Shown here: piece after piece, positions 1,045 through 59,646 of the stretch
Numbering within the stretch: position 1 is the stretch's first letter
How the letters are laid out: each line of letters starts with the position of its first letter
NCBI GenBank assembly: GCA_040752595.1
Contig: JBFMGX010000043.1
Location: forward strand, 1 to 64,000
DNA length: 64,000 bases
Source of the DNA: Candidatus Zixiibacteriota bacterium
Lineage (GTDB): Bacteria > Zixibacteria > MSB-5A5 > WJJR01
Reading direction: 5' to 3'
The notes under the pieces: generated by a model
Told to the model about the DNA's origin: nothing
The model's database searches: none
Seen by the model: the letters and a program-made list of their open reading frames with translations, nothing else
Translations under genes and position numbers: made by a program

Positions 1045-3063
1045 TCAGGGTGCGCAGGGGTCGCAGAACTCGGTTGCGGGATTCGCGCCGCGGAAGGCGA
1101 CATTGACCTCTCGGACGACATCGGTGATGCTGGTGACCCCATCACAGTCGACGTCCGTCCGCGCACGCGGACAAATGGGATCGATCACCGGCGCCATGCC
1201 CCGGAATGCGACATCGACCGTCTTCACAACATCCTGAAGATCGGAACGCAGGCCGTCGCACTGCGGGTCGCCGGCACAGGGACACGAGCATGGCGGCGGA
1301 GGAATCTGGAACAGACCGGGCGCGGAGAAAGCCGTTGATTCGGCCGGGACACCGCCGGGAGCACGGTAGGCCTTGATGCGCCAATAGTACGTGCCGGATG
1401 CCAGGTCGGTGATCGCATCATTGAATTGGGTACCGGTGACGAATAGATCGCGTAGTGTGGTGCCGAAGCCGGAGCTGCTGGAAATCTGCAGCCGATACAA
1501 ATCCTCCGATTCCTTCCACGCCGTCGCCCAGAGCAAACCGGGTGCATTCGGATCGATGAGTTCGCTGTTCAATGGGTAGATCAGGCGCGGGTCGGTGAGT
1601 GGCAGATACCAACGCGCCGACCAGACGTCCTGATCGCCATCACGCGTGTCGGTCCACACGGCAACAACCTTGTCGCCGACAGCGGAGACGGCAATGTACT
1701 CGGCGATCTTGCCGGCCATGGGTGTGAGCGGCGTCATTGGGCCGAGCGGTCGCGCCACGAGACCCGGGTTGCCGGAGCGTCCGGCCGACATCACTGCCTC
1801 CTGAGCCAGCGCTTGGGCCTTCGCCAGGAGATTGGGATTGATGGAGATCGACGACACGCGGTGATTCGAGGACCAAGTAGCGCCGCCATCGAAGGAATAT
1901 GCGGCGAAGACATCGAACAGATAGTGACTCGGGTCGGTGCGCTGATCATACCAGATCGACACGAGAATGCCCTCATCATTGCAGACCATCCAGTTGTGGA
2001 ACTGATCGACATCAGGACCGACCGGATCGTCATTGACGCGGATCGGCGCCGACCAGGTGTGGCCGGTGTCGAGAGAACGCTGGAACATGATGTCGGAGTC
2101 GAAGAAGGGGGAGTTGGGATCCACGTCGCGGTATTGCAGGTACAGATTGCCGGCGTGCGGTCCGGCGGTGATGTCGGCGTCGGTGGTCGGCTGGCTGTAG
2201 ACGTCGACGTTGCCATCAACGTAGCTCCACCCATCGACAGGGCGCAGCATGCGATCGCCTTCCCAAGTCACACCGCCGTCGGTCGACTTGTTGTAGCGAA
2301 TGGCATTGTACCAATCGCAGCCGCCGCCGGAGGAGTCGACATGGTACCCCTGCCAGAAGACGTAGACGGCGCCGTCTTTGCCGGCGAGGGGTTGCGAAAA
2401 CTGGCCGGCGCTGACGATGCCGGTGCAGGTCGTATTCAACGGCGGGCCGACCATGATGGTGTCGTCGAAGAACAACGCGTCGAAGGTCGAGCGGGCGAAC
2501 ATGATGCGATTGGGCTTAAGGTCGGTGAAGCGGGTCCAGGAGATGTAGAGATTCCCATCGTATGGTCCGCCCGTGCGATCACAGGTGACGAATTGCTTGT
2601 CTTCGAAGTAGGGGCCCAGGTCCGACTCGACCACGTACGGGCCGGTCCACGTCGCACCCTTGTCGGTCGAGCGCAGAAAAGCGATGTAACTGAGGCCGTC
2701 GTTGCCGCTGGCATCATAGTCGAGATGGCTGATGAAGAAATGACCGGAGGAATTGACGGTCATGATCGGGTCGGACTGCCGATTGAAGATCTGGTAACTT
2801 GTGCGGATCAGACTGTCGGTCCAAGTGGCGCCGCCGTCGGTGGAGCGTCCCAGACCGATCTGGCGATAGCCGAGTCGGAAGTCGCGGTGATTGGTGATGA
2901 CGACATTGGTGTCGATGGGGCAGATCCATGCCTGCTCCTCATTTTGCAGACCGGATTGGTGGCCGGAGACCGGGACATTTGGGGGAATGGGAACGGCATG
3001 GGTGGACGATGCGACCAAGAGGAGGGCGGTCGCCAGCGCGAAGAGCCGGGCAAAGCGGATCAT
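1045..3063 (-). CDS. Secreted sialidase-like beta-propeller protein with dockerin-like tail
   Basis: 672 aa. The ATG at 3063 is chosen because GGAG lies seven bases upstream; an ATG at 3069 sits directly against that site. Residues 1-22 form a signal peptide ending in HA. The body has repeated Asp-box-like motifs (STDGGATWTD, STDKGATWTG, STDGGVTWEG, SLDTGHTWSA, SFDGGATWSS) typical of six-bladed BNR/sialidase folds. A fibronectin-like segment follows near residues 510-590. The last about 75 residues hold two dockerin-like Asp-rich repeats (DLQDVV..VDVAFRG and DVDCDGVTS..VNVAFRG) and a final FCDPC. The sialidase catalytic Arg triad was not confirmed, so this may be a non-enzymatic or other glycan-acting propeller. 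It is probably exported and surface-attached. The protease at 7503 carries the same tail. Confidence 0.8.
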   Translation of the reverse strand: MIRFARLFALATALLLVASSTHAVPIPPNVPVSGHQSGLQNEEQAWICPIDTNVVITNHRDFRLGYRQIGLGRSTDGGATWTDSLIRTSYQIFNRQSDPIMTVNSSGHFFISHLDYDASGNDGLSYIAFLRSTDKGATWTGPYVVESDLGPYFEDKQFVTCDRTGGPYDGNLYISWTRFTDLKPNRIMFARSTFDALFFDDTIMVGPPLNTTCTGIVSAGQFSQPLAGKDGAVYVFWQGYHVDSSGGGCDWYNAIRYNKSTDGGVTWEGDRMLRPVDGWSYVDGNVDVYSQPTTDADITAGPHAGNLYLQYRDVDPNSPFFDSDIMFQRSLDTGHTWSAPIRVNDDPVGPDVDQFHNWMVCNDEGILVSIWYDQRTDPSHYLFDVFAAYSFDGGATWSSNHRVSSISINPNLLAKAQALAQEAVMSAGRSGNPGLVARPLGPMTPLTPMAGKIAEYIAVSAVGDKVVAVWTDTRDGDQDVWSARWYLPLTDPRLIYPLNSELIDPNAPGLLWATAWKESEDLYRLQISSSSGFGTTLRDLFVTGTQFNDAITDLASGTYYWRIKAYRAPGGVPAESTAFSAPGLFQIPPPPCSCPCAGDPQCDGLRSDLQDVVKTVDVAFRGMAPVIDPICPRARTDVDCDGVTSITDVVREVNVAFRGANPATEFCDPCAP

Positions 3064-3153
3064 GGTCATCTCCCGTTCGGAGTGAATGTGATAGGCAGGT
3101 ACTGACAGCTTCGGGGTGGCCGCAGAACTTGGGACATGGCCGCCCACAGCCGG

Positions 3154-3181
3154 AATATACCGCAAACGTCCGCTTTGTCAA
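3154..3181 (-). promoter_or_regulatory. Sigma70-like promoter for the propeller gene
   Basis: On the minus strand, TTGACA (3181-3176) and TATATT (3159-3154) are separated by 16 bases, about 90 bases upstream of the ATG at 3063. This is the best sigma70-like match I noticed in the window. Confidence 0.55.
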
Positions 3182-3213
3182 TCAGGGTTGCCGGCCCCGT
3201 ATTCGGATCAACG

Positions 3214-3648
3214 TCACCGCCTTGCGGTACTGGGGCGGCGGGGCAACTCGGCGACAACATCGATCGCGATGCCGCCTCGGACATTGAAGTGCCCGGTCAC
3301 GCGCAGCCAGCGGGGCTTCAGGAATGCGAAAAGCGCATCGAGCAGTTCATTCACCAGGTCCTCGTGGAAGATGCCGATCTCACGATAGGTCCACAGGTAG
3401 AGCTTGAGCGACTTGCTCTCCAGGATCTTGTGGTCGGGGATATACGATATCTCCAGATCGGCGGAATCCGGTTGACCGGTGACGGGGCAAAGACAGGTGA
3501 ACTCGGTGCAATGGAACGTGACGACGGTGTCGCGGTGCCGATGGCGGTTTGGAAACGCCTCCAGTTGTCGGGTCGGCTTCGCGGGCCCCTGTCCCAGGAG
3601 CTTCAGGCCTGAGCGGAGTGCATTTGGGCGTGGGGTCTTCTTAGTCAT
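3214..3648 (-). CDS. queF: NADPH-dependent 7-cyano-7-deazaguanine reductase (QueF, type I)
   Basis: 144 aa, a normal length for the short unimodular type I enzyme. It reduces preQ0 to preQ1 in queuosine synthesis, in the cytoplasm. The catalytic Cys is in FTCLCPVTGQPD, the substrate-binding ESKSLKLY segment follows, and the HEDLVN stretch matches the family. The ATG at 3648 has GAGGGG upstream. The in-frame extension to 3849 is translated repeat DNA and is rejected. It is the last gene of the queE-queC-queD-queF set, but 261 bases and a repeat element separate it from queD, so it may have its own promoter. Confidence 0.93.
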   Translation of the reverse strand: MTKKTPRPNALRSGLKLLGQGPAKPTRQLEAFPNRHRHRDTVVTFHCTEFTCLCPVTGQPDSADLEISYIPDHKILESKSLKLYLWTYREIGIFHEDLVNELLDALFAFLKPRWLRVTGHFNVRGGIAIDVVAELPRRPSTARR

Positions 3649-3660
3649 TTGCGTCCCCTC

Positions 3661-3900
3661 TGAGCGTCCAACAGAATGAACAGGTTGAAGAGCTCCCTCA
3701 CCCGATCCGCCTGCGACGCCGTGCCTGCCGGCAGGCAGGGATCGACCTCTCCCCCTCGACCCGGCTCGGGGCAAGCCGGAGGGAGAGGTTAGACCCCTCT
3801 CCCCTCTGGGGAGAGGGCAGGGTGAGGGGTGGTCACCAATGCACTGCACATGACGAACTCAGAACGCAGCATGGACTTCCCATTTTGCCAGAGGGCCTGA
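3661..3900. repeat. MITE-like repeat family A, copy 1
   Basis: About 240 bp between queD and queF. The left end GCGTCCAACAGAATGA and the inverted right end (CATTTTGCCAGAGGGC) are degenerate terminal inverted repeats. The interior has CCCTCACCCGATCCGCCTGCG, a GCCTGCCGGCAGGC palindrome, GGAGGGAGAGG and CCTCTCCCCTCTGGGGAGAGG. Other copies are at 7195, 34361 and 55474. It has no coding potential of its own. Confidence 0.7.
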
Positions 3901-3909
3901 GAGTTTCTG

Positions 3910-4635
3910 CTATGAACCGGCTTCCGAGCCGGCGTACAAGCAGGCCGATGTGCATGTCTCGCGAATCATCAACTGCTCACAGAGCGCGCGGCGTGTCGCG
4001 AGTTCTTGCCACAGCCAACGGGCGAGGTTTTCCGACGTGGGATTCTCCAAGCCCGGAACATCGTTCAACAGGCGGTGGTCGAGCTGCGCATGGACGTCTG
4101 CCAGGGGTGCCAACAGCGGCTGCGCATTCGGTGCGTCGATGACGCAGCGGAAGCTGTGGCCATGCAGCCGGCGACACTTGTGATCGGGGGGCAAACGGGG
4201 AAGAAAGTGCGCGGCGGCGAAGCCGAAGTGCACCTGCTCCCGCGAGATCCCGGCGGCGCCTGCGGGGACGATCAGGGGATCGAACACCGTGTCGCCGACG
4301 ATGTCGACACTGCAGCCAGTGAATCCCGACACAGCACGGGTCAGCCGCTCGCTCAGATACCGACCGACATCGTCCCGGGATGTATCGTGCAGCTCAGGGA
4401 CATCATTGAGGCATCGGTGGTCGAGTTCACCCACGATCGGTGCGCAGGCAGATCTGATATCCGCGAAGTCCACGAGCCAGCCGAGCCGGGGATCGACCGA
4501 TCCCGTAACGGAAACAGAAACGGCATAGGAATGTCCGTGCAACCTCGCCGCCGGGGAGTCCGGCGGCGCCGACAGGTTGCGGTGGGCCGCTTCAAAACGA
4601 AATTCGCAGCGTAGTGTAATCATCATTCGGCTCAT
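3910..4635 (-). CDS. queD: Two-domain 6-carboxytetrahydropterin synthase-like protein (tandem QueD)
   Basis: 241 aa, twice the usual QueD length, from an internal duplication. QueD converts dihydroneopterin triphosphate to 6-carboxytetrahydropterin. Domain 1 (about residues 4-120) keeps zinc-type His (AAH, LHGHSY) and LDHRCLND, but the catalytic Cys before RLHGHS is absent (SPAARLHGHSY) and the late Glu is Asp. Domain 2 (about 130-235) has all the hallmarks: AAHFLPRLPPDHKCRRLHGHSF with the Cys, LDHRLLND and IRETCTSACLY. So one half looks catalytically dead and one competent. The ATG at 4635 overlaps the queC stop in an ATGA, indicating translational coupling. Assignment is strong; the role of the first half is unknown. 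Confidence 0.88.
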   Translation of the reverse strand: MSRMMITLRCEFRFEAAHRNLSAPPDSPAARLHGHSYAVSVSVTGSVDPRLGWLVDFADIRSACAPIVGELDHRCLNDVPELHDTSRDDVGRYLSERLTRAVSGFTGCSVDIVGDTVFDPLIVPAGAAGISREQVHFGFAAAHFLPRLPPDHKCRRLHGHSFRCVIDAPNAQPLLAPLADVHAQLDHRLLNDVPGLENPTSENLARWLWQELATRRALCEQLMIRETCTSACLYAGSEAGS

Positions 4636-5348
4636 CCCGGAATGTCGTAGGGAATGGGATCGACAACGCCGAGCTCGGCAAACGCCGCCCGCCGTAATAC
4701 GCAGGCATCGCAGACCCCGCAGGCCAGCACCGACTGCGAGTCCCCCGCGTCCACCGGTTGGTAGCAACTGCTGGTCAGTCCGAATGGCACGCCGAGATCG
4801 AGACCGCGCCGGACGATCGCGCTCTTGGTGCGGTGCAGAAGCGGCGTGTGGACATGCCACGATAGGGTGCGCTGCGCCCCCGACCGTGTGGCCCGGTTGG
4901 CGAGTGCTTCAAAAGCCGCAAAATACTCCGGGCGACAGTCGGGATAACCGGAGTAGTCCAGCGCATGTGCACCGATGAATATGTCTCCGGTCTCCAGGGT
5001 CTCCGCCCATCCCATGGCCAAAGCGAGGAAGATCGTGTTGCGAGCGGGCACGTATGTGACCGGGATATCATCGCCGATCTCGGTGCGAGTGCGGCGGCTG
5101 GGCACAGGGAGGTCGGCAGTGAGCGCCGAGCCGCCCCACAAGGTCAAATCCACCGGCAGGATGATGTGCCGTGCCACCCCGAGGGCGGCGGCGATCCGTT
5201 GGGCTGCCGTGATTTCCACGCGGTGCCGTTGCCCATAATCGATGGTCAGCGCGTTGGTAATGTACCCCTCGCTTCGGCAAATGGCCAGTGCCACGGCCGA
5301 GTCCAGTCCGCCGCTCAGCAGGACGACGGCGTTTCGTGCGTTACTCAT
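4632..5348 (-). CDS. queC: 7-cyano-7-deazaguanine synthase (QueC)
   Basis: 238 aa, full length. This ATP-dependent enzyme makes preQ0 from 7-carboxy-7-deazaguanine and ammonia in the cytoplasm. The N-terminal PP-loop is VVLLSGGLDS, with YGQRHRVE further on. Four zinc-binding Cys are seen near the end (SSCYQP, then CGVCDAC). YVPARNTIFLALA and IGAHALDYSGYPDCRPE are typical family segments. The ATG at 5348 overlaps the queE stop (ATGA), and its own stop overlaps the queD start, so queE-queC-queD are translated as a coupled unit. Confidence 0.94.
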   Translation of the reverse strand: MSNARNAVVLLSGGLDSAVALAICRSEGYITNALTIDYGQRHRVEITAAQRIAAALGVARHIILPVDLTLWGGSALTADLPVPSRRTRTEIGDDIPVTYVPARNTIFLALAMGWAETLETGDIFIGAHALDYSGYPDCRPEYFAAFEALANRATRSGAQRTLSWHVHTPLLHRTKSAIVRRGLDLGVPFGLTSSCYQPVDAGDSQSVLACGVCDACVLRRAAFAELGVVDPIPYDIPG

Positions 5349-6317: not shown

Positions 6318-7205
6318 ATGAGCATCTTGTTGATTGACGACGGCGGCCGTCTACTGGAGAGTCGGGAATCTGTCCTGGGTGAACACGGTCATTTGTGCGT
6401 GAGGGCAACAACCGTGCCGGAGGCGATGGATCGCCTGCAACGCGATTCGACGATTAAATTGGTGGTTCTGGATCTCATGATGCCGCAGCGGGAGGGATTC
6501 GCACTCCTCGAGTATCTGGCCGCCAACCAGCGCTTCAGCCACATTCCCGTCATCATCTGTTCCGGACGGCGGGACGGGACGGCGGTGGCGAGATCCCTTC
6601 AACTGGGCGCGCGCGATTACATTCTCACGCCCATCCGCAGCGGCACTCTGTTACGGAAGATCGACCACGCCTTGGAGCGCGTTTGGCAGACGGGATTGTC
6701 GGTCGATGAGAATGCCCAGCAGCGCGGGGTTCTGGGGCGAATCCTCGAATGGGAGGGATACAAGACACTCCATGCGAGTACCGGTCCGGAGGCGATGCGC
6801 CAATTACCAGACCGTACCGTCGACTTGGTCATCTCGGCCATCACCATGAAGCCCATGAGCGGGTGGGATGTATTGCTGGAGGCCAAAGAACGGCGGCCGC
6901 AACTGCCGGTCTTGCTGATCACCGATCCTGGGAATCCGAGCGACATCGATCCGTTGGCCGGCGGGGCGGATGGGGTCATCAGCCTGCCATTCGAGAGCAA
7001 GTCCATCCGACGCGAGCTCAAGGAAGTTCTGGCGATGACTCAGAGGCAGTGTCCGAATGCCGGCCGCTCCGGTTCCGTAGCCAAGTGTAGGGAGTTGCCA
7101 CGCATGGCCACGGCTGCGGCCTCGCACCGTGTGCGGTCCTGCGGATACGATTCGCTGACGTCCGGATGCCGGGCGAGTCCGCGACCTCACTCTCAGAGCG
7201 TCTAA
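6318..7205 (+). CDS. Tandem receiver-domain protein (response regulator without output domain)
   Basis: 295 aa; the ATG at 6318 follows GGAGGAGAGGG. Receiver 1 (residues about 1-120) keeps the acidic pocket (IDDGG) and the phospho-acceptor in VVLDLMMP, but the usual Lys of the KP motif is Thr (YILTPI). Receiver 2 (about 130-245) looks degenerate: the acceptor Asp position in LVISAITMKPMSG is Ala and the Lys is Leu (GVISLPF). No DNA-binding or enzymatic domain follows; the last about 50 residues are low-complexity. The end of the frame runs into the terminal repeat of family A copy 2, whose CTAA provides the stop. It is probably a phosphotransfer or protein-interaction regulator, divergent from queE. 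Confidence 0.75.
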   Translation: MSILLIDDGGRLLESRESVLGEHGHLCVRATTVPEAMDRLQRDSTIKLVVLDLMMPQREGFALLEYLAANQRFSHIPVIICSGRRDGTAVARSLQLGARDYILTPIRSGTLLRKIDHALERVWQTGLSVDENAQQRGVLGRILEWEGYKTLHASTGPEAMRQLPDRTVDLVISAITMKPMSGWDVLLEAKERRPQLPVLLITDPGNPSDIDPLAGGADGVISLPFESKSIRRELKEVLAMTQRQCPNAGRSGSVAKCRELPRMATAAASHRVRSCGYDSLTSGCRASPRPHSQSV

Positions 7206-10580: not shown

Positions 10581-12557
10581 TCATCCGCGGGTGTTTATGA
10601 TTCGCTCCAATGTCGCCTTGTCGGTCTCGAGGATGCGTATCTGCTCGGTGTGATTGTGCGAGCCGCGTGAACCATCGGCCTCGATAGTGCGCAGATGAAG
10701 TCGTATCGGTTCCAAGACCCGGTCGCGCTCGGGGGTAACGGGGAGGGAATCGGCCTTGGCCAGGAGCGCGGACACGGCTTGGTGCGCGGTGGCGAACTCA
10801 CTGAGCCACTGCCGATGGAGGGCGGGGTAGCTCTCATCGTGGCAATCGGCGCAGCGCTGCGATGCCGGCTTGGCGATCGTGTTGTCCGGCTGCCTGTGGC
10901 ATTCGCCGCATGAGATCCCCGCGGCAATCATCGGGTCGGCGTTCTCCAACGGCAGACTGTCTGATTTCCCGGTGAGGATCGTCGCCTGGATCGTGTGACA
11001 GTATGTGCAATCGCGCTCGGTCTGCGCATGGTGACACCCAAGGCAGTCGCTCCGTTGCACGGTCAATTCTCCGTGACGACGCGCATTGGAATGACAACGG
11101 GAGCACGTCAGCCTGGCATTGATGAGATGCCGCTTGTGGGAATAGACCAGCCCGAAGATCGGCGCGTCGATTTCCTCGATGCCGCTGTGGCAATTGACGC
11201 AGGCCGATGGGACCAGCCGATCCTTCGCGGGCAGGGCGGGCAACCGATAGACCGCGCCGACCTGTGCGAAGAAGTCCCCGAGACGCTGGTATGCGGCATC
11301 GAGGAGCGCATTCGCATAGACGATATTGTGGATCGGTCGGCCCAGGCGGACCATGTCGTAGTTGTATTGGGCCTGGCGGAGGAGCGAATCGGCACCGGTC
11401 GGGGCGGACGCCTGAAGCGGTGCGGCCTTCTCCAGTGCCCGTCGGATCGTTTCCATGCGTTGCTCGGCGGACTTCTTCCAGTCTGCCAGCAAACGGTCGT
11501 ATCCGGCGCCGTGGCAGGGCTCACAGCTCTTGCCGGAGGCGATGAACGTGCCGCCGGTCAACGAGTCGTTCCCGTTGGCTGTGTGGAAGATGTGGCATCC
11601 CTGGCAGGTGAGTCCCTTCTCAAACATGGGATTGGGTTGATCGGCGACCCCGACGCCGCCATGTCCGCTGAACAGGTCTTTTTGTGCCGTGTGCAGATCT
11701 GTATGGCAGGCCTGACAATCGGGCATCGCTTGTTCCCGAGCCACGGACTTGTGTTGCATGGACAGGTGGCAGAGGTCGCATTCGATCTTGTTCTCGGTAA
11801 TGTGCATGCGATGGACCAGGTCGGTGTTGCCGAATTGGTCCAGCCGCTCGCGATCCCAGTGGCAGGCGTAGCAGCGCTCGCGGGGCACAGCACCGTCGCC
11901 GACCACCATGGCGCCGTGGCAACGGACACAATCCAACTTGCGTTCGATCACGCTCGTGTGGTCATACTTCGGCGGCTCGCTCCCTTCCACCGGCACCGGC
12001 GGGTTGTGGCAGATCGTGCAGTGGGCGACGTTGCGCCCCTGCTCATCGGTCTTGAAGTGGCACAGGATGCAGGTGTTCTCGGTCACCGTCATGTGCTCGC
12101 CCTGGACGATCTGCGCGTGGCACGAGACGCAGCGCAGTTTCTTGCCGCGACGCATCTGTTCCAGGTGCGGCTTGTGATCGAAATTGACGCCGTCGAACGT
12201 GACCCTTCCATGCAAGAGCCGCGTCTCATGGCATCCGGAACGCAGACAGGAGGCATCGGCAATCTCCGCCCAGGGCTTGGAGCGGCGATACGCGTTGGTC
12301 CAGTATTTGACCAGTTGGTTGAGGTCGCGGAATTTTCCCGTCACGACACTGGTATATCCGGGCTCGTAGTGACAATCGCGGCAGGGGACCATGTGATGCG
12401 AGGATGAGGCCCAAGCGTCATAGAACGGTTGCATGTAGTGGCAGGTCGTGCAGAAGTCGGAGCGGTTCGTGTACAGCACGGCGCCGCCGAACAGGACGAC
12501 CGCCGCCAGGACGGCGATTACGCCCCCCAGCACGATTCTCTTGATCCAACGCTTCAT
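10581..12557 (-). CDS. Membrane-anchored 18-haem cytochrome c with NapC/NirT-type N-terminus
   Basis: 658 aa. One N-terminal membrane helix (about residues 7-30) leads into FCTTCHYMQPFYDAW, the NapC/NirT/NrfH quinol-oxidising signature. I count 17 CXXCH motifs plus one CX4CH (CLRSGCH, about residue 105), so 18 haem c sites. Two haem-rich halves are joined by a charged helical linker (about 340-420). Inferred role: accept electrons from membrane quinol and pass them along a periplasmic haem wire. It is the last gene of an apparent operon with the two cytochrome b/c fusions upstream; the gap to the previous gene is 69 bases. Substrate or terminal acceptor cannot be read from sequence. Confidence 0.88.
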   Translation of the reverse strand: MKRWIKRIVLGGVIAVLAAVVLFGGAVLYTNRSDFCTTCHYMQPFYDAWASSSHHMVPCRDCHYEPGYTSVVTGKFRDLNQLVKYWTNAYRRSKPWAEIADASCLRSGCHETRLLHGRVTFDGVNFDHKPHLEQMRRGKKLRCVSCHAQIVQGEHMTVTENTCILCHFKTDEQGRNVAHCTICHNPPVPVEGSEPPKYDHTSVIERKLDCVRCHGAMVVGDGAVPRERCYACHWDRERLDQFGNTDLVHRMHITENKIECDLCHLSMQHKSVAREQAMPDCQACHTDLHTAQKDLFSGHGGVGVADQPNPMFEKGLTCQGCHIFHTANGNDSLTGGTFIASGKSCEPCHGAGYDRLLADWKKSAEQRMETIRRALEKAAPLQASAPTGADSLLRQAQYNYDMVRLGRPIHNIVYANALLDAAYQRLGDFFAQVGAVYRLPALPAKDRLVPSACVNCHSGIEEIDAPIFGLVYSHKRHLINARLTCSRCHSNARRHGELTVQRSDCLGCHHAQTERDCTYCHTIQATILTGKSDSLPLENADPMIAAGISCGECHRQPDNTIAKPASQRCADCHDESYPALHRQWLSEFATAHQAVSALLAKADSLPVTPERDRVLEPIRLHLRTIEADGSRGSHNHTEQIRILETDKATLERIINTRG

Positions 12558-55751: not shown

Positions 55752-57446
55752 CTATGCGATCGCCTCCCACACCTCGGACCGGCGCGGGATGACGCGTAGG
55801 ACCTCCCCGGCCGTCGTCAGGCCGCCGGCGACCAGCGCGCGCCCCTGTGTTTGCAGATCCTGATAGCCGCGGGCGCGCAGATGCTCGCGCAGTTGCGCGG
55901 CGTTGTGTCCTTCAGCCACCATGCGACGGATGGCGTCGTCGACGTTGAATACTTCGTAGATGCCGACTTGACCTGCATATCCGGTGCCGCGGCACATCCG
56001 GCAACCCACCGCTTTGCGCCAGATTCCCATGTCGCTCAGCATGTCGAATCCCAGTTGCTCGCCCACGGCCGGTGATGGGTCGATGACCACGGCGCATTCA
56101 TTACACAGCCGTCGCGCCAGACGTTGCGCCACGACCGCGCGCAGCGCGGTGGCGACCAGGAAGGGCTCCACGCCGACGTCGACCAGGCGCAAGGGCGCCG
56201 CCGCGGCGTCGATCGTGTGGATCGTCGACAGCACGAGGTGACCGGTCATCGCCGCGCGGACGGCGATCTGCGCCGTGGGGCCATCGCGGACCTCGCCCAC
56301 CATGATGATGTCGGGGTTCTGGCGCATGAACGCCCGCAGGCAGATCGGGAAGGTGAGTCCCGCCTTTTCGTTCACCTGCACCTGATTGACCAACGGCAGC
56401 GCGTACTCAACCGGGTCCTCCACCGTCACGACGTTCTTCTCGGGCGTGGTGATCTCTTTGAGCGCGGCGTAGAGGGTCGTTGTCTTTCCCGATGAGGTCG
56501 GCCCACTGATCAGGATCATCCCCTCCGTGGCGTGGATCTCCGAGCGCAGCAGTTCCAACTGTCCCCCCGACAGCCCCAGACTCTCCAGTGTCAACTCGAT
56601 GCCATGACGCCCGAGGACACGCACGACAACCTTCTCCCCGTGGACTGTGGGGATGGTCGAGACACGCAGATCGACCGTCTGGTTACCTACGGTCATGGCG
56701 AACCGCCCATCCTGGGGGATGCGTTTTTCGGATACGTCCATGCCCGCCAGGACCTTGATGCGTGACACGATTGCCGGGTGCAGATTGGCCGGGGGCTGGG
56801 CCTCCTCGCGCAGCACCCCGTCGACGCGGAAGCGGACGCGCAAGAGCCCTTCTGCCGGCTCGATGTGCAGATCGGAGGTCTTCTGCTTGATCGCCTCGGA
56901 CAACAGCACCTCGACCAACCGTACGATCGGCGCATCCTCCGCCGTGATCGGAGTGCCCCGCCCGCCGCCGGATGCGGGCATATCGCTGATCACGCGCTCG
57001 ACGCTGTCGGCCACTGTGTAGAACTGAGCGATGGCGGCGTCGATGTCCTCCGGCGTCGCCACCACGCGATTGACCAAAAGCCCGGTCTTATAGCGGACTT
57101 CGTCGATGGCCACCATGTCGAGCGGGTCGGCCATGGCCACGGTGAGTCGATTCTTGATCTTGAAGAGCGGTACGACCCGGTGACGCTTGGCCGTCGGCAG
57201 GGGAATGATATTGACGACCTCCGGGTCGGCCGTGAGACCTCGAATCGTGATCTTGGGGAGACCCAAACGCTCGCTGAGGATGTCGACGAGGTCGGTCGAG
57301 GAAATCCGCCCCTGCGCCACCAGGATGTCGCCGAGACGACGGCCGGTCCGTTTCTGTTCCTCCAAGGCCTCCGAGAGTTGCTCGGGAGTGATCAGGCCTC
57401 GTGCCGCCAGGAGGTCACCGATACGCGGATAGGTCGGCTGATTCAT
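55752..57446 (-). CDS. Assembly ATPase PilB/GspE
   Basis: 564 aa; ATG 57446 with AAGG upstream. N-terminal MshEN/N1E domain (RIGDLLAARGLITPEQLSEALEEQKRTGRRLGDILV), then the motor: Walker A GPTSSGKTT, Asp box TVEDPVEY, Walker B DIIMVGEVRDGPTAQIA, His box GHLVLSTIHT, and a Cys4 zinc site (CNEC ... CRMC). The usual Glu-Thr after GEVRD is Pro-Thr here. First gene of the block; no PilT or prepilin peptidase is in the window. Confidence 0.92.
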   Translation of the reverse strand: MNQPTYPRIGDLLAARGLITPEQLSEALEEQKRTGRRLGDILVAQGRISSTDLVDILSERLGLPKITIRGLTADPEVVNIIPLPTAKRHRVVPLFKIKNRLTVAMADPLDMVAIDEVRYKTGLLVNRVVATPEDIDAAIAQFYTVADSVERVISDMPASGGGRGTPITAEDAPIVRLVEVLLSEAIKQKTSDLHIEPAEGLLRVRFRVDGVLREEAQPPANLHPAIVSRIKVLAGMDVSEKRIPQDGRFAMTVGNQTVDLRVSTIPTVHGEKVVVRVLGRHGIELTLESLGLSGGQLELLRSEIHATEGMILISGPTSSGKTTTLYAALKEITTPEKNVVTVEDPVEYALPLVNQVQVNEKAGLTFPICLRAFMRQNPDIIMVGEVRDGPTAQIAVRAAMTGHLVLSTIHTIDAAAAPLRLVDVGVEPFLVATALRAVVAQRLARRLCNECAVVIDPSPAVGEQLGFDMLSDMGIWRKAVGCRMCRGTGYAGQVGIYEVFNVDDAIRRMVAEGHNAAQLREHLRARGYQDLQTQGRALVAGGLTTAGEVLRVIPRRSEVWEAIA

Positions 57447-57722: not shown

Positions 57723-59123
57723 ATGATTGAATTCGCACCGGGAAATCTGCGCATCCCCAAATGGACCCGCCCGGTCTACATGGTCGCCGCCGGGATGAGC
57801 GACTTCCGCAAACGGTATCCGGAGAAGAAGCTGGAAGAGCTCTGCATGATGGCCTTCCGCATGATGCTGGAGGAAAACGATCTCAAGGTCGATCCCCTGG
57901 AGGTCAAGGGCCACATCAACTTCGCCTGCTACGGGGAGTTTGCCGATCATTTCCAGGACCAGTTACTCTGCGAGGCCAAGGTTCATGATTACATCGGGTT
58001 GGATCCGCTCGGCAACGTCGGCATCAAGACCGGCGGCGCGACCGGCGGCTCGACTTTGCTGATGGGTGCCACGACCATCGCCAGCGGACTGTCCGACTGC
58101 ACGTTGGTCCTCGGCTGGGAGCGGATGGATGAGGTGATCACGTGGACCGGGAACTACTACATCGCCTCGGCCGCCTGCAAGGACTTCGAGACGCGGCTGG
58201 CTCGTAACTATGCCAGTTACTATGCCCCGATGGCGCGGCGATTCCAGGAAATGTACAACGTCGATGAACGCCTTCGCGCCGCCATCGCCGTCAAGAACCG
58301 TCTGTACGCCTGCTATTCACCGTACTCGCAACAGCCGGGGCGGCACACGGTCGACGAGGTGTTGAACGGCGACATCGTGTCCGATCCCTTGCGTTTCCTG
58401 GAGTGCTGCGCCATGAGCGTCGGCTCGGCCTGCACGCTTCTGTGCTCGGAGGAGCTGGCGTACAAGTTCACCGACAAGCCGGTGCGGCTCTACATCGCCG
58501 GCGGGTCGCACACGCTGCGAACCGGCGACCGTCGCCCGATGCGGATTCCCCTGTTGCCGAATGAAACCGAGGCCGGATACAAGAAACTGTACGCGGAGAT
58601 GGAGAAGCAAGACGGGCGCTGGCCGGGGTTCGAGAGCTTCGGCGCCACACGCATGGCGGCCTATCTCGTCTACCGCATGGCGGGCATCCATGTTCCGGTT
58701 GAGGATCTCGACCTGGTGGAAACGCATGATGCTTTCACGATTTCCGACCTGCAGACATATGGCGACGTGGGCTTGACGCTCTATGGCGAAGAGCAGGAGT
58801 ACGTTCGCTCCGGCGAGTGCTACCACACCAACCCGCACACGGGCCAGCCGGGCAAATGCCCCGCCAATCTCTCCGGGGGGCTTTTGGGTACCATGCATGC
58901 GGTCGGCGCCACCGGCATCTTCCAGGCCGATGAGGTCCTCTGGCAGTTGCAGGGAAAGTATGACAAGTTCCATGGCGATCCCAAGCTCTGGGAGCGCTAC
59001 GGCAAAACCAAGCCGTCCGACTGGCAGAGTCTGCAAGTCAAGGATCCGCGGCGTGGGTTGGCGATCTCCCACGCCGGTGTCGGCAGCCATGTCACCTGTG
59101 CCGTTCTCGAAAAGGCCTGGTAG
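57723..59123 (+). CDS. Thiolase-fold protein lacking the nucleophilic Cys, DUF35 partner
   Basis: 466 aa; ATG 57723 with AGGAGG upstream. SCP2-type thiolase fold: GWERMDEV, VETHDAFTISDL (His) and NLSGGLLGTMHAVGATG (second His). The position of the nucleophilic Cys, normally N-x-x-C-A-T/S-G, reads KTGGATGGSTLL, so Cys is replaced by Gly. Thiolase-like proteins without this Cys that pair with DUF35 proteins include the steroid side-chain aldolases of the Ltp2 type, so C-C lyase or acyl-CoA-binding activity is more likely than ordinary thiolysis. Gene for a DUF35 protein follows 10 bases downstream. Confidence 0.8.
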   Translation: MIEFAPGNLRIPKWTRPVYMVAAGMSDFRKRYPEKKLEELCMMAFRMMLEENDLKVDPLEVKGHINFACYGEFADHFQDQLLCEAKVHDYIGLDPLGNVGIKTGGATGGSTLLMGATTIASGLSDCTLVLGWERMDEVITWTGNYYIASAACKDFETRLARNYASYYAPMARRFQEMYNVDERLRAAIAVKNRLYACYSPYSQQPGRHTVDEVLNGDIVSDPLRFLECCAMSVGSACTLLCSEELAYKFTDKPVRLYIAGGSHTLRTGDRRPMRIPLLPNETEAGYKKLYAEMEKQDGRWPGFESFGATRMAAYLVYRMAGIHVPVEDLDLVETHDAFTISDLQTYGDVGLTLYGEEQEYVRSGECYHTNPHTGQPGKCPANLSGGLLGTMHAVGATGIFQADEVLWQLQGKYDKFHGDPKLWERYGKTKPSDWQSLQVKDPRRGLAISHAGVGSHVTCAVLEKAW

Positions 59124-59133
59124 GAGGTGTATG

Positions 59134-59646
59134 ATGAGCGACCGTGTTGCCCTGAAGACCACTCCATCCGAAATCACCGTCAAAGGTGATGCCTGGATTC
59201 TGCACTTTCCGCGTTTCGGCAAAGAGGGAACGCATCTTCACACGTACGGCCTGCTGACGCCCTATTTCAAAGGTCTCACCGAAGGGAAGCTGTTGGGGAC
59301 CAAATGCACCAATCCGCGTTGCCCGATCTACAAGGGCAAAGGCGAACTCTGGATTCCGCCGCGTGCCGATTGCCCCGACTGCCACCAGCCGATGGTCTGG
59401 GAGGAAGTCAAGGATCCCAAGGGCTACATCTATGCATACACCTACGTCGAACGCGGCGGCACCGGATTGGAAATCGAGTGCCCATACTACCAGATCGATG
59501 TCAAGCTGGATGGCGTCTGTTCCATCGTGAAAGGGTACCTGGTCAACCGCAAGCCGATCAAGATCGGCGATCGGGTCCGGGCGCGCTTTCATGCCGGGAA
59601 CGACGCGACTCACACGTGTCTGGATGTGTATTGGGAATTGACCTGA
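59134..59646 (+). CDS. DUF35 OB-fold protein with rubredoxin-like zinc ribbon
   Basis: 170 aa; of the two adjacent ATGs, 59134 has AGGAGG at better spacing. Zinc ribbon Cys: KCTNPRCPIYKGKG and DCPDCHQ. A C-terminal OB-fold (YAYTYVERGGTGLEIECPYYQIDVKLDG ... IGDRVRARF) binds acyl-CoA in family members. It is expected to form a stable complex with the preceding thiolase-fold protein. Confidence 0.88.
   Translation: MSDRVALKTTPSEITVKGDAWILHFPRFGKEGTHLHTYGLLTPYFKGLTEGKLLGTKCTNPRCPIYKGKGELWIPPRADCPDCHQPMVWEEVKDPKGYIYAYTYVERGGTGLEIECPYYQIDVKLDGVCSIVKGYLVNRKPIKIGDRVRARFHAGNDATHTCLDVYWELT

Follow-up and report, generated by a model that had tools for sequence, protein, structure and literature searches.

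Two adjacent genes from a Candidatus Zixiibacteriota bacterium – one encoding a thiolase-fold protein without its catalytic cysteine, the other a DUF35 protein – may together specify a two-subunit, cysteine-independent lyase that cleaves a beta-hydroxyacyl-CoA by a retro-aldol reaction. The substrate would most likely be a beta-hydroxy-beta-methyl acyl-CoA of the leucine/isovalerate branch, and we give this reading a probability of roughly 0.4. An earlier sequence-only reading of this DNA had raised aldol chemistry on an acyl-CoA as an alternative to thiolysis, and retro-aldol cleavage is still the best reading. It is preferred because of the lost cysteine and the gene context, not because of residues shared with known aldolases; the catalytic dyads of the proven thiolase-fold aldolases (Tyr/Tyr or Tyr/Cys) are absent from the family, which counts against it.

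Organization of the gene pair

The thiolase-fold gene occupies positions 57723–59123 on the forward strand of the window, by which we mean the whole 64,000-nucleotide stretch of DNA analysed. It encodes 466 residues, contains VGIKTGGATGGST, and is immediately preceded by the Shine-Dalgarno-like sequence AAGGAGGAG. The DUF35 gene (59131–59646, forward strand; 171 residues) begins 7 bp downstream of the thiolase stop codon, with an alternative ATG at 59134, in keeping with the pairing of the two genes that had been read from the sequence at the outset. Thiolase_N and Thiolase_C_1 both exceed their Pfam cut-offs in the thiolase-fold protein. The DUF35 protein has a ChsH2-type OB fold, for which OB_ChsH2_C exceeds its cut-off, and zinc-ribbon-like cysteines at 59, 64, 81 and 84, with zf-ChsH2 scoring under its cut-off (21.6 versus 23.2 bits). 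The top NCBIfam match of the thiolase-fold protein, and its best-named family, is NF004982 (PRK06365), which aligns nearly end to end, yet its 507.6 bits fall below the curated cut-off of 695; no paper naming PRK06365 was found in the open-licence literature searched.

To the left of the pair, and divergent from it, is a pilB-like ATPase gene with MshEN and T2SSE domains (55752–57446, reverse strand), accompanied by type IV pilus-like genes. The genes to the right, for a haem-binding-domain protein and for proteins read as efflux parts, appear unrelated.

Missing cysteines and active-site residues

Alignment with phmmer to solved SCP2-type thiolases places the cysteine of EAACASGS (6esq) and NNNCSTGS (6hsj) opposite the second glycine of KTGG, residue 105, whose codon is at 58035–58037 on the forward strand. 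The sequence-only reading had located this Cys-to-Gly replacement in KTGGATGGS and had described both histidine motifs as kept; the alignments confirm each, with Gly105 and the active-site histidines H335 (in HDAF) and H392 (in MHAVGATG) invariant in all 25 family members. The second catalytic cysteine of SCP2 thiolases, in HDCF, is also replaced, by Ala337 of HDAF, and the second histidine motif reads MHA instead of GHP. Only the first of the two cysteine losses is decisive, because BbsB – a true DUF35-linked thiolase – has HDAF as well but retains CSAG.

This bears on whether the protein might still act as a thiolase, by way of another nucleophile (C229, C126 or a histidine) or of direct attack by CoA. 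Its fold and its best structural matches (7yvy, 6esq and BbsB 7pxp) are those of thiolases, and BbsB shares HDAF, but the retention of CSAG in BbsB speaks against this option. C126 and C229 are invariant in the Cys-less family, but some ordinary thiolases carry cysteine in the same columns besides their nucleophile, so that neither is a special replacement nucleophile, and we regard thiolase activity as quite improbable.

The active-site tyrosines of Ltp2, which the earlier reading had proposed to check, proved to be absent. In the alignment the Ltp2 tyrosine pair (in YDHF and at Y344) and the Tyr/Cys of Sal (YDCY) give way to His335, Ala337 and His392, and the lack of both arrangements argues against direct membership in those aldolases. 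Ketosynthases that have lost their cysteine decarboxylate. The protein could likewise decarboxylate an acyl-CoA, or form an enolate, without a cysteine, with the two histidines stabilising the enolate of a malonyl-CoA-like or beta-keto substrate; the residues kept here are two histidines. One study describes slow malonyl-CoA decarboxylation by TbSLP, a thiolase-like protein, but none by CtSal, which is likewise Cys-less (PMC12329534). The hydratase neighbours described below suit a hydroxyacyl substrate better, and decarboxylation seems to us unlikely.

Conservation and distribution

Family members are 58–93% identical to the window's protein, and in all 25 the residues G105, H335, A337, F338, H392, H450 and H456 are unchanged, together with many Asp, Tyr and Gly; given this invariance, the conserved features are not due to chance. 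When nine of the genes are compared with that of the window, 47–72% of fourfold-degenerate sites differ while 58–93% of residues are kept, which identifies a protein under strong purifying selection and not a decaying thiolase. A non-catalytic member, for example a scaffold that binds CoA and holds DUF35 and a hydratase in position, would accord with the loss of two catalytic cysteines, but is made highly improbable by the invariance of both active-site histidines and of the many other residues in 25 of 25 members. Moreover, the window genome has no second protein resembling the Cys-less thiolase, at E 0.001, that might be an active copy.

A DUF35 gene with four spaced cysteines directly follows the thiolase-fold gene at 26 of 27 loci, a count into which one genome, G005, enters twice (L042 and L003). 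At the 27th locus, L041, the contig ends within the DUF35 gene, as seen in L045 on the same contig. Within the window's phylum the pair is present in 4 of 132 genomes, including the window's own, and these members are 90–93% identical and score about 500 bits against NF004982; for two of them, named copies belong to Zixibacteria. A survey of that phylum with NF004982 at E 1e-60 returned 11 of the 132 genomes – the four pair genomes at about 500 bits, and seven others at 216–267 – and in none of the 132 was the curated cut-off of 695 bits exceeded. In other phyla, with the centre genomes included, family members turned up in 3 of 347 genomes from that of G138 (an acidobacterium), 6 of 46 from that of G146 (58–82% identity) and 4 of 368 from that of G135, and one contig scan gave 19 loci across several phyla. 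The distribution is thus rare and patchy, as seen in genomes that are mostly metagenome assemblies and that, beyond the surveyed phyla, were picked for carrying the pair. Phages yielded no match to the Cys-less thiolase, and plasmids yielded only relatives of 22–36% identity among the matches listed.

Phylogeny and predicted structure

A quick maximum-likelihood tree, whose 36 rows include partial PDB ones, recovers the Cys-less family as one clade (SH-aLRT 100) with a long stem. The family stands weakly beside CtSal, TcLtp2, 4u4e and a Sphingobium protein (SH-aLRT 78, branch 0.007). The earlier reading had proposed a phylogeny with Ltp2 as a check; in this quick tree the family appears as a clade of its own, with no more than that weak link to the Ltp2-type aldolases. 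It lies outside the Cys-bearing thiolases of the tree.

The predicted model has a thiolase fold (mean pLDDT 70, pTM 0.81), with catalytic loops below pLDDT 50. Its best structural matches (Foldseek, VIA) are 7yvy (Z 36.1, rmsd 2.9, 352 residues aligned), 6esq (Z 34.6, rmsd 3.1, 370 aligned) and BbsB 7pxp (Z 34.3, rmsd 3.1, 362 aligned), followed at lower scores by Ltp2 (6ok1; Z 31.2, rmsd 3.2, 350 aligned) and Sal (9myr; Z 29.3, rmsd 3.7, 367 aligned). As judged from this model, the closest folds are those of DUF35-linked thiolases.

The Sphingobium plasmid pSHV1 carries, at 2761–3930 of locus L204, an annotated thiolase family protein with an OB-fold partner, no cysteine (GGAS) and a YDAF motif, which from these motifs is probably a Sal/Ltp2-like aldolase. 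A putative thiolase of known structure, PDB 4u4e (GGSS, YDSF), appears to resemble it.

Hydratase, carboxylase and lyase genes

Across the loci, the pair itself is the sole neighbour combination that recurs in all or nearly all. An enoyl-CoA hydratase gene lies within 4 kb of the pair at 8 of 26 loci, and at five of these it is of the LiuC type (G002, G144, G146, G188 and G171); none was found near the pair at the other 18, the window's included, several of the contigs being short. The five pair-adjacent LiuC proteins are 38–65% identical, in the comparisons made, to LiuC proteins encoded within methylcrotonyl-CoA carboxylase (MCC) clusters, and the gene orders around them differ. Genes at these loci were called with a crude composition-based caller and named from their sequences, with the names checked in part against profile libraries, by homology, or against annotated plasmid operons.

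The scarcity of hydratases, with none found nearby at 18 of 26 loci, and the varied neighbours would fit a lyase or transferase that acts on some other, unrelated acyl-CoA (aromatic, dicarboxylic or steroid-like), with the LiuC neighbours being coincidental. We consider this very unlikely in view of the five LiuC adjacencies in differing gene orders and of the same-locus swap in the window's genus described below. A LiuC-type hydratase is present in 11 of the 25 pair genomes tested and adjoins the pair in five, all five of which lack the gene for the beta subunit of methylcrotonyl-CoA carboxylase (MCCb); the rough chance of at least five of 11 being adjacent is 2e-9, relatedness ignored.

A set of 70 genomes was compared for LiuC (E 1e-40), present in 33, and for MCCb (at least 464 bits, searched with the G004 gene as query), present in 30. 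LiuC occurs without MCCb in just six of the 70; five of these six carry the pair and have LiuC beside it, and the remaining 27 LiuC genomes all have MCCb. Given LiuC, MCCb is thus absent from 5 of 11 pair genomes versus 1 of 22 pair-less genomes (Fisher 0.01, relatedness ignored). Across the whole set of 70, pair carriers show no depletion of MCCb (9 of 25 versus 21 of 45, p 0.46), and in the 46-genome phylum, which was surveyed whole, it is present in 0 of 6 pair carriers versus 17 of 40 others (p 0.07).

The window genome lacks LiuC (E 1e-40) and MCCb at the thresholds used. Among the seven genomes of its family, the four with the pair have neither MCCb nor an HMG-CoA lyase of the 390-bit class; all three pair-less genomes have such a lyase, and two of them MCCb. 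A match to HMG-CoA lyase over the curated cut-off occurs in 7 of the 20 pair genomes searched, a count that leaves out G154, G168, G171, G188, G485 and G862. Five of the seven are canonical (at least 393 bits), and the seven include the single match in the window genome, at 280 bits (cut-off 246). That gene lies in a cluster at 5062–10489 of L150 (contig C28) with genes read as a CaiB-type CoA-transferase, a LeuC/LeuD-like dehydratase and an isopropylmalate-dehydrogenase-like protein, and may be a different lyase, possibly of the citramalyl-CoA type. Judged by sequence, G171 has an HMG-CoA lyase match as well.

We also considered a simple substitution of the pair for HMG-CoA lyase in an MCC-containing leucine pathway. 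This idea is weakened by the absence of MCCb, too, from those genomes of the window's family that carry the pair, and by the lack of any overall depletion of MCCb among pair carriers. A gene in L061 was dropped as an MCCb candidate, being just 33–37% identical to the MCCb of other genomes. Four plasmid MCC operons encode a carboxyl transferase (read as MCCb), an enoyl-CoA hydratase, the carboxylase alpha subunit and hydroxymethylglutaryl-CoA lyase, and three of the four also have isovaleryl-CoA dehydrogenase upstream; a search for this dehydrogenase gave matches of 33–50% in 34 of 36 genomes and hence is not diagnostic.

Several related clusters have arrangements of their own. At 7156–7669 of L146 in G171, a 58% relative, an apparently shortened MCCa adjoins LiuC and the pair, and a gene resembling that of HMG-CoA lyase lies nearby. 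The start of the biotin carboxylase in this MCCa runs into the end of the biotin carrier within about 250 bases, through either true loss or faulty assembly. Two genomes of the window's order (G007, L139 5286–12566; G008, L140 5204–12355) have genes read as an archaeal-type HMG-CoA synthase, a Cys-bearing thiolase and DUF35, with MCCb, LiuC and MCCa directly after them, and no HMG-CoA lyase over the cut-off was found in either genome; from this gene content, their HMG-CoA synthase complex may act in reverse during leucine breakdown. In G135, MCCa, LiuC and MCCb lie close to genes interpreted as those of HMG-CoA reductase and of enzymes of the mevalonate pathway (L141, 4605–15377), and the genome gave no HMG-CoA lyase match; carbon from leucine may there pass straight into the mevalonate pathway.

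A same-locus swap within the genus

In the sister genome G001, which does not have the pair, MCCb and LiuC flank the pilB operon. A second G001 contig, which we infer to be the neighbour of the first, starts inside MCCa and continues with genes for BCCP, HMG-CoA lyase, a further hydratase-like protein and a liv transporter. G002 has the pair, and there the genes next to pilB read LiuC-thiolase-DUF35-livKHMGF, the liv genes being orthologous to those of G001 (68–82% identical). The window has only the thiolase/DUF35 pair at this side of pilB, and of the window's pilus genes five, including pilB, match those of G001 at 60–78% and a sixth at 39%. At 11440–11480 of the G002 locus (L043) pilB meets LiuC head to head and each lacks its N-terminus, a junction that is a deletion or a misassembly.

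Aldolases are reversible, and a hydratase can act as a dehydratase, so the pair could instead join acetyl-CoA to a carbonyl compound (acetone or another ketone, for example) in a non-covalent aldol or Claisen-type condensation, whose product the adjacent hydratase would then dehydrate, as a step in assimilation or branched-acyl synthesis. The hydratase is indeed oriented in the same direction as the pair in L043, L060, L062 and L133. Against this, the pair occupies the place of leucine-breakdown genes in the window's genus, with liv-type transporter genes adjoining in G002, and inspection by eye of the listed neighbours of the pair revealed no genes for ketone assimilation; we think the forward direction distinctly unlikely.

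Proposed reaction

In the preferred reading, the beta-hydroxyacyl-CoA substrate would come from an enoyl-CoA hydratase, whether of the LiuC type or of some other, and the thiolase-fold chain and the DUF35 subunit would form a two-subunit carbon-carbon lyase working in the cleavage direction. Of the two conserved histidines, one would take the hydroxyl proton and its partner would serve to protonate or stabilise the enolate of acetyl-CoA, with no acyl-enzyme intermediate being formed. Hydration followed by retro-aldol cleavage is the simplest reaction, since a hydratase is the recurring neighbour wherever any is recognised, and the leucine branch is suggested by the LiuC type of that hydratase and by the swap in the window's genus. 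The candidate reactions are the cleavage of HMG-CoA to acetoacetate and acetyl-CoA and of 3-hydroxyisovaleryl-CoA to acetone and acetyl-CoA; the gene content points to HMG-CoA as the putative substrate, or to 3-hydroxyisovaleryl-CoA where MCC is absent.

A bolder and, in our view, doubtful proposal based on gene content is that a hydratase and the pair constitute a biotin-free leucine/isovalerate branch that would give acetone and acetyl-CoA in place of MCC and HMG-CoA lyase, through a two-histidine site unlike those of Ltp2 and Sal. According to one report, crotonase hydrates 3-methylcrotonyl-CoA to 3-hydroxyisovaleryl-CoA, and human cells without 3-methylglutaconyl-CoA hydratase (MGH) hydrate 3-methylcrotonyl-CoA normally, so that LiuC need not be the 3-methylcrotonyl-CoA hydratase (PMC4474341). 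Neither an acetone-forming route from isovaleryl- or 3-hydroxyisovaleryl-CoA nor a further thiolase-like aldolase beyond the steroid aldolases was found in the open-licence literature searched, from which print may differ.

If the retro-aldol reading is correct, thiolase-fold retro-aldolases would reach beyond steroid side chains and would include a further catalytic solution, His/His without Cys or Tyr. It could also explain how branched C5 units are handled in some bacteria without methylcrotonyl-CoA carboxylase or HMG-CoA lyase. It would warn, too, that the genes of this family, which general thiolase models match, probably do not encode ordinary thiolases.

Comparison with known systems

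The sequence-only reading had likened the pair to DUF35-linked aldolases that lack the thiolase cysteine, and the likeness holds for CtSal, a proven DUF35-linked retro-aldolase with glycine in place of its nucleophilic cysteine; its authors conclude that this glycine makes thiolysis impossible, and Ltp2 is another such retro-aldolase (PMC12329534). Sal with its DUF35 partner Shy and Ltp2 with its partner ChsH2 (PDB 9myr and 6ok1) resemble the pair in having a thiolase fold, a DUF35 subunit and a pathway hydratase. They differ in having YDCY or YDHF plus Gln or Tyr, whereas the pair family has HDAF and His392; they also appear apart from its clade in the quick tree, and match the model with lower Z scores than the DUF35-linked thiolases do.

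The benzoylsuccinyl-CoA thiolase BbsAB (7pxp) is similarly DUF35-linked and has the HDAF motif and the second histidine, but it retains the nucleophilic cysteine (CSAG) and has a GHP motif. The archaeal complex of acetoacetyl-CoA thiolase, DUF35 and HMG-CoA synthase (6esq) shares the thiolase-DUF35 layout and is among the closest folds, but both of its cysteines are retained (CASG and HDCF) and HMG-CoA synthase is a third partner. The HMG-CoA lyase and methylcrotonyl-CoA carboxylase of the liu operon are alike in another respect: they hold the corresponding pilB-side place in the sister genome, with folds that we take to be non-homologous to those of the thiolase/DUF35 pair.
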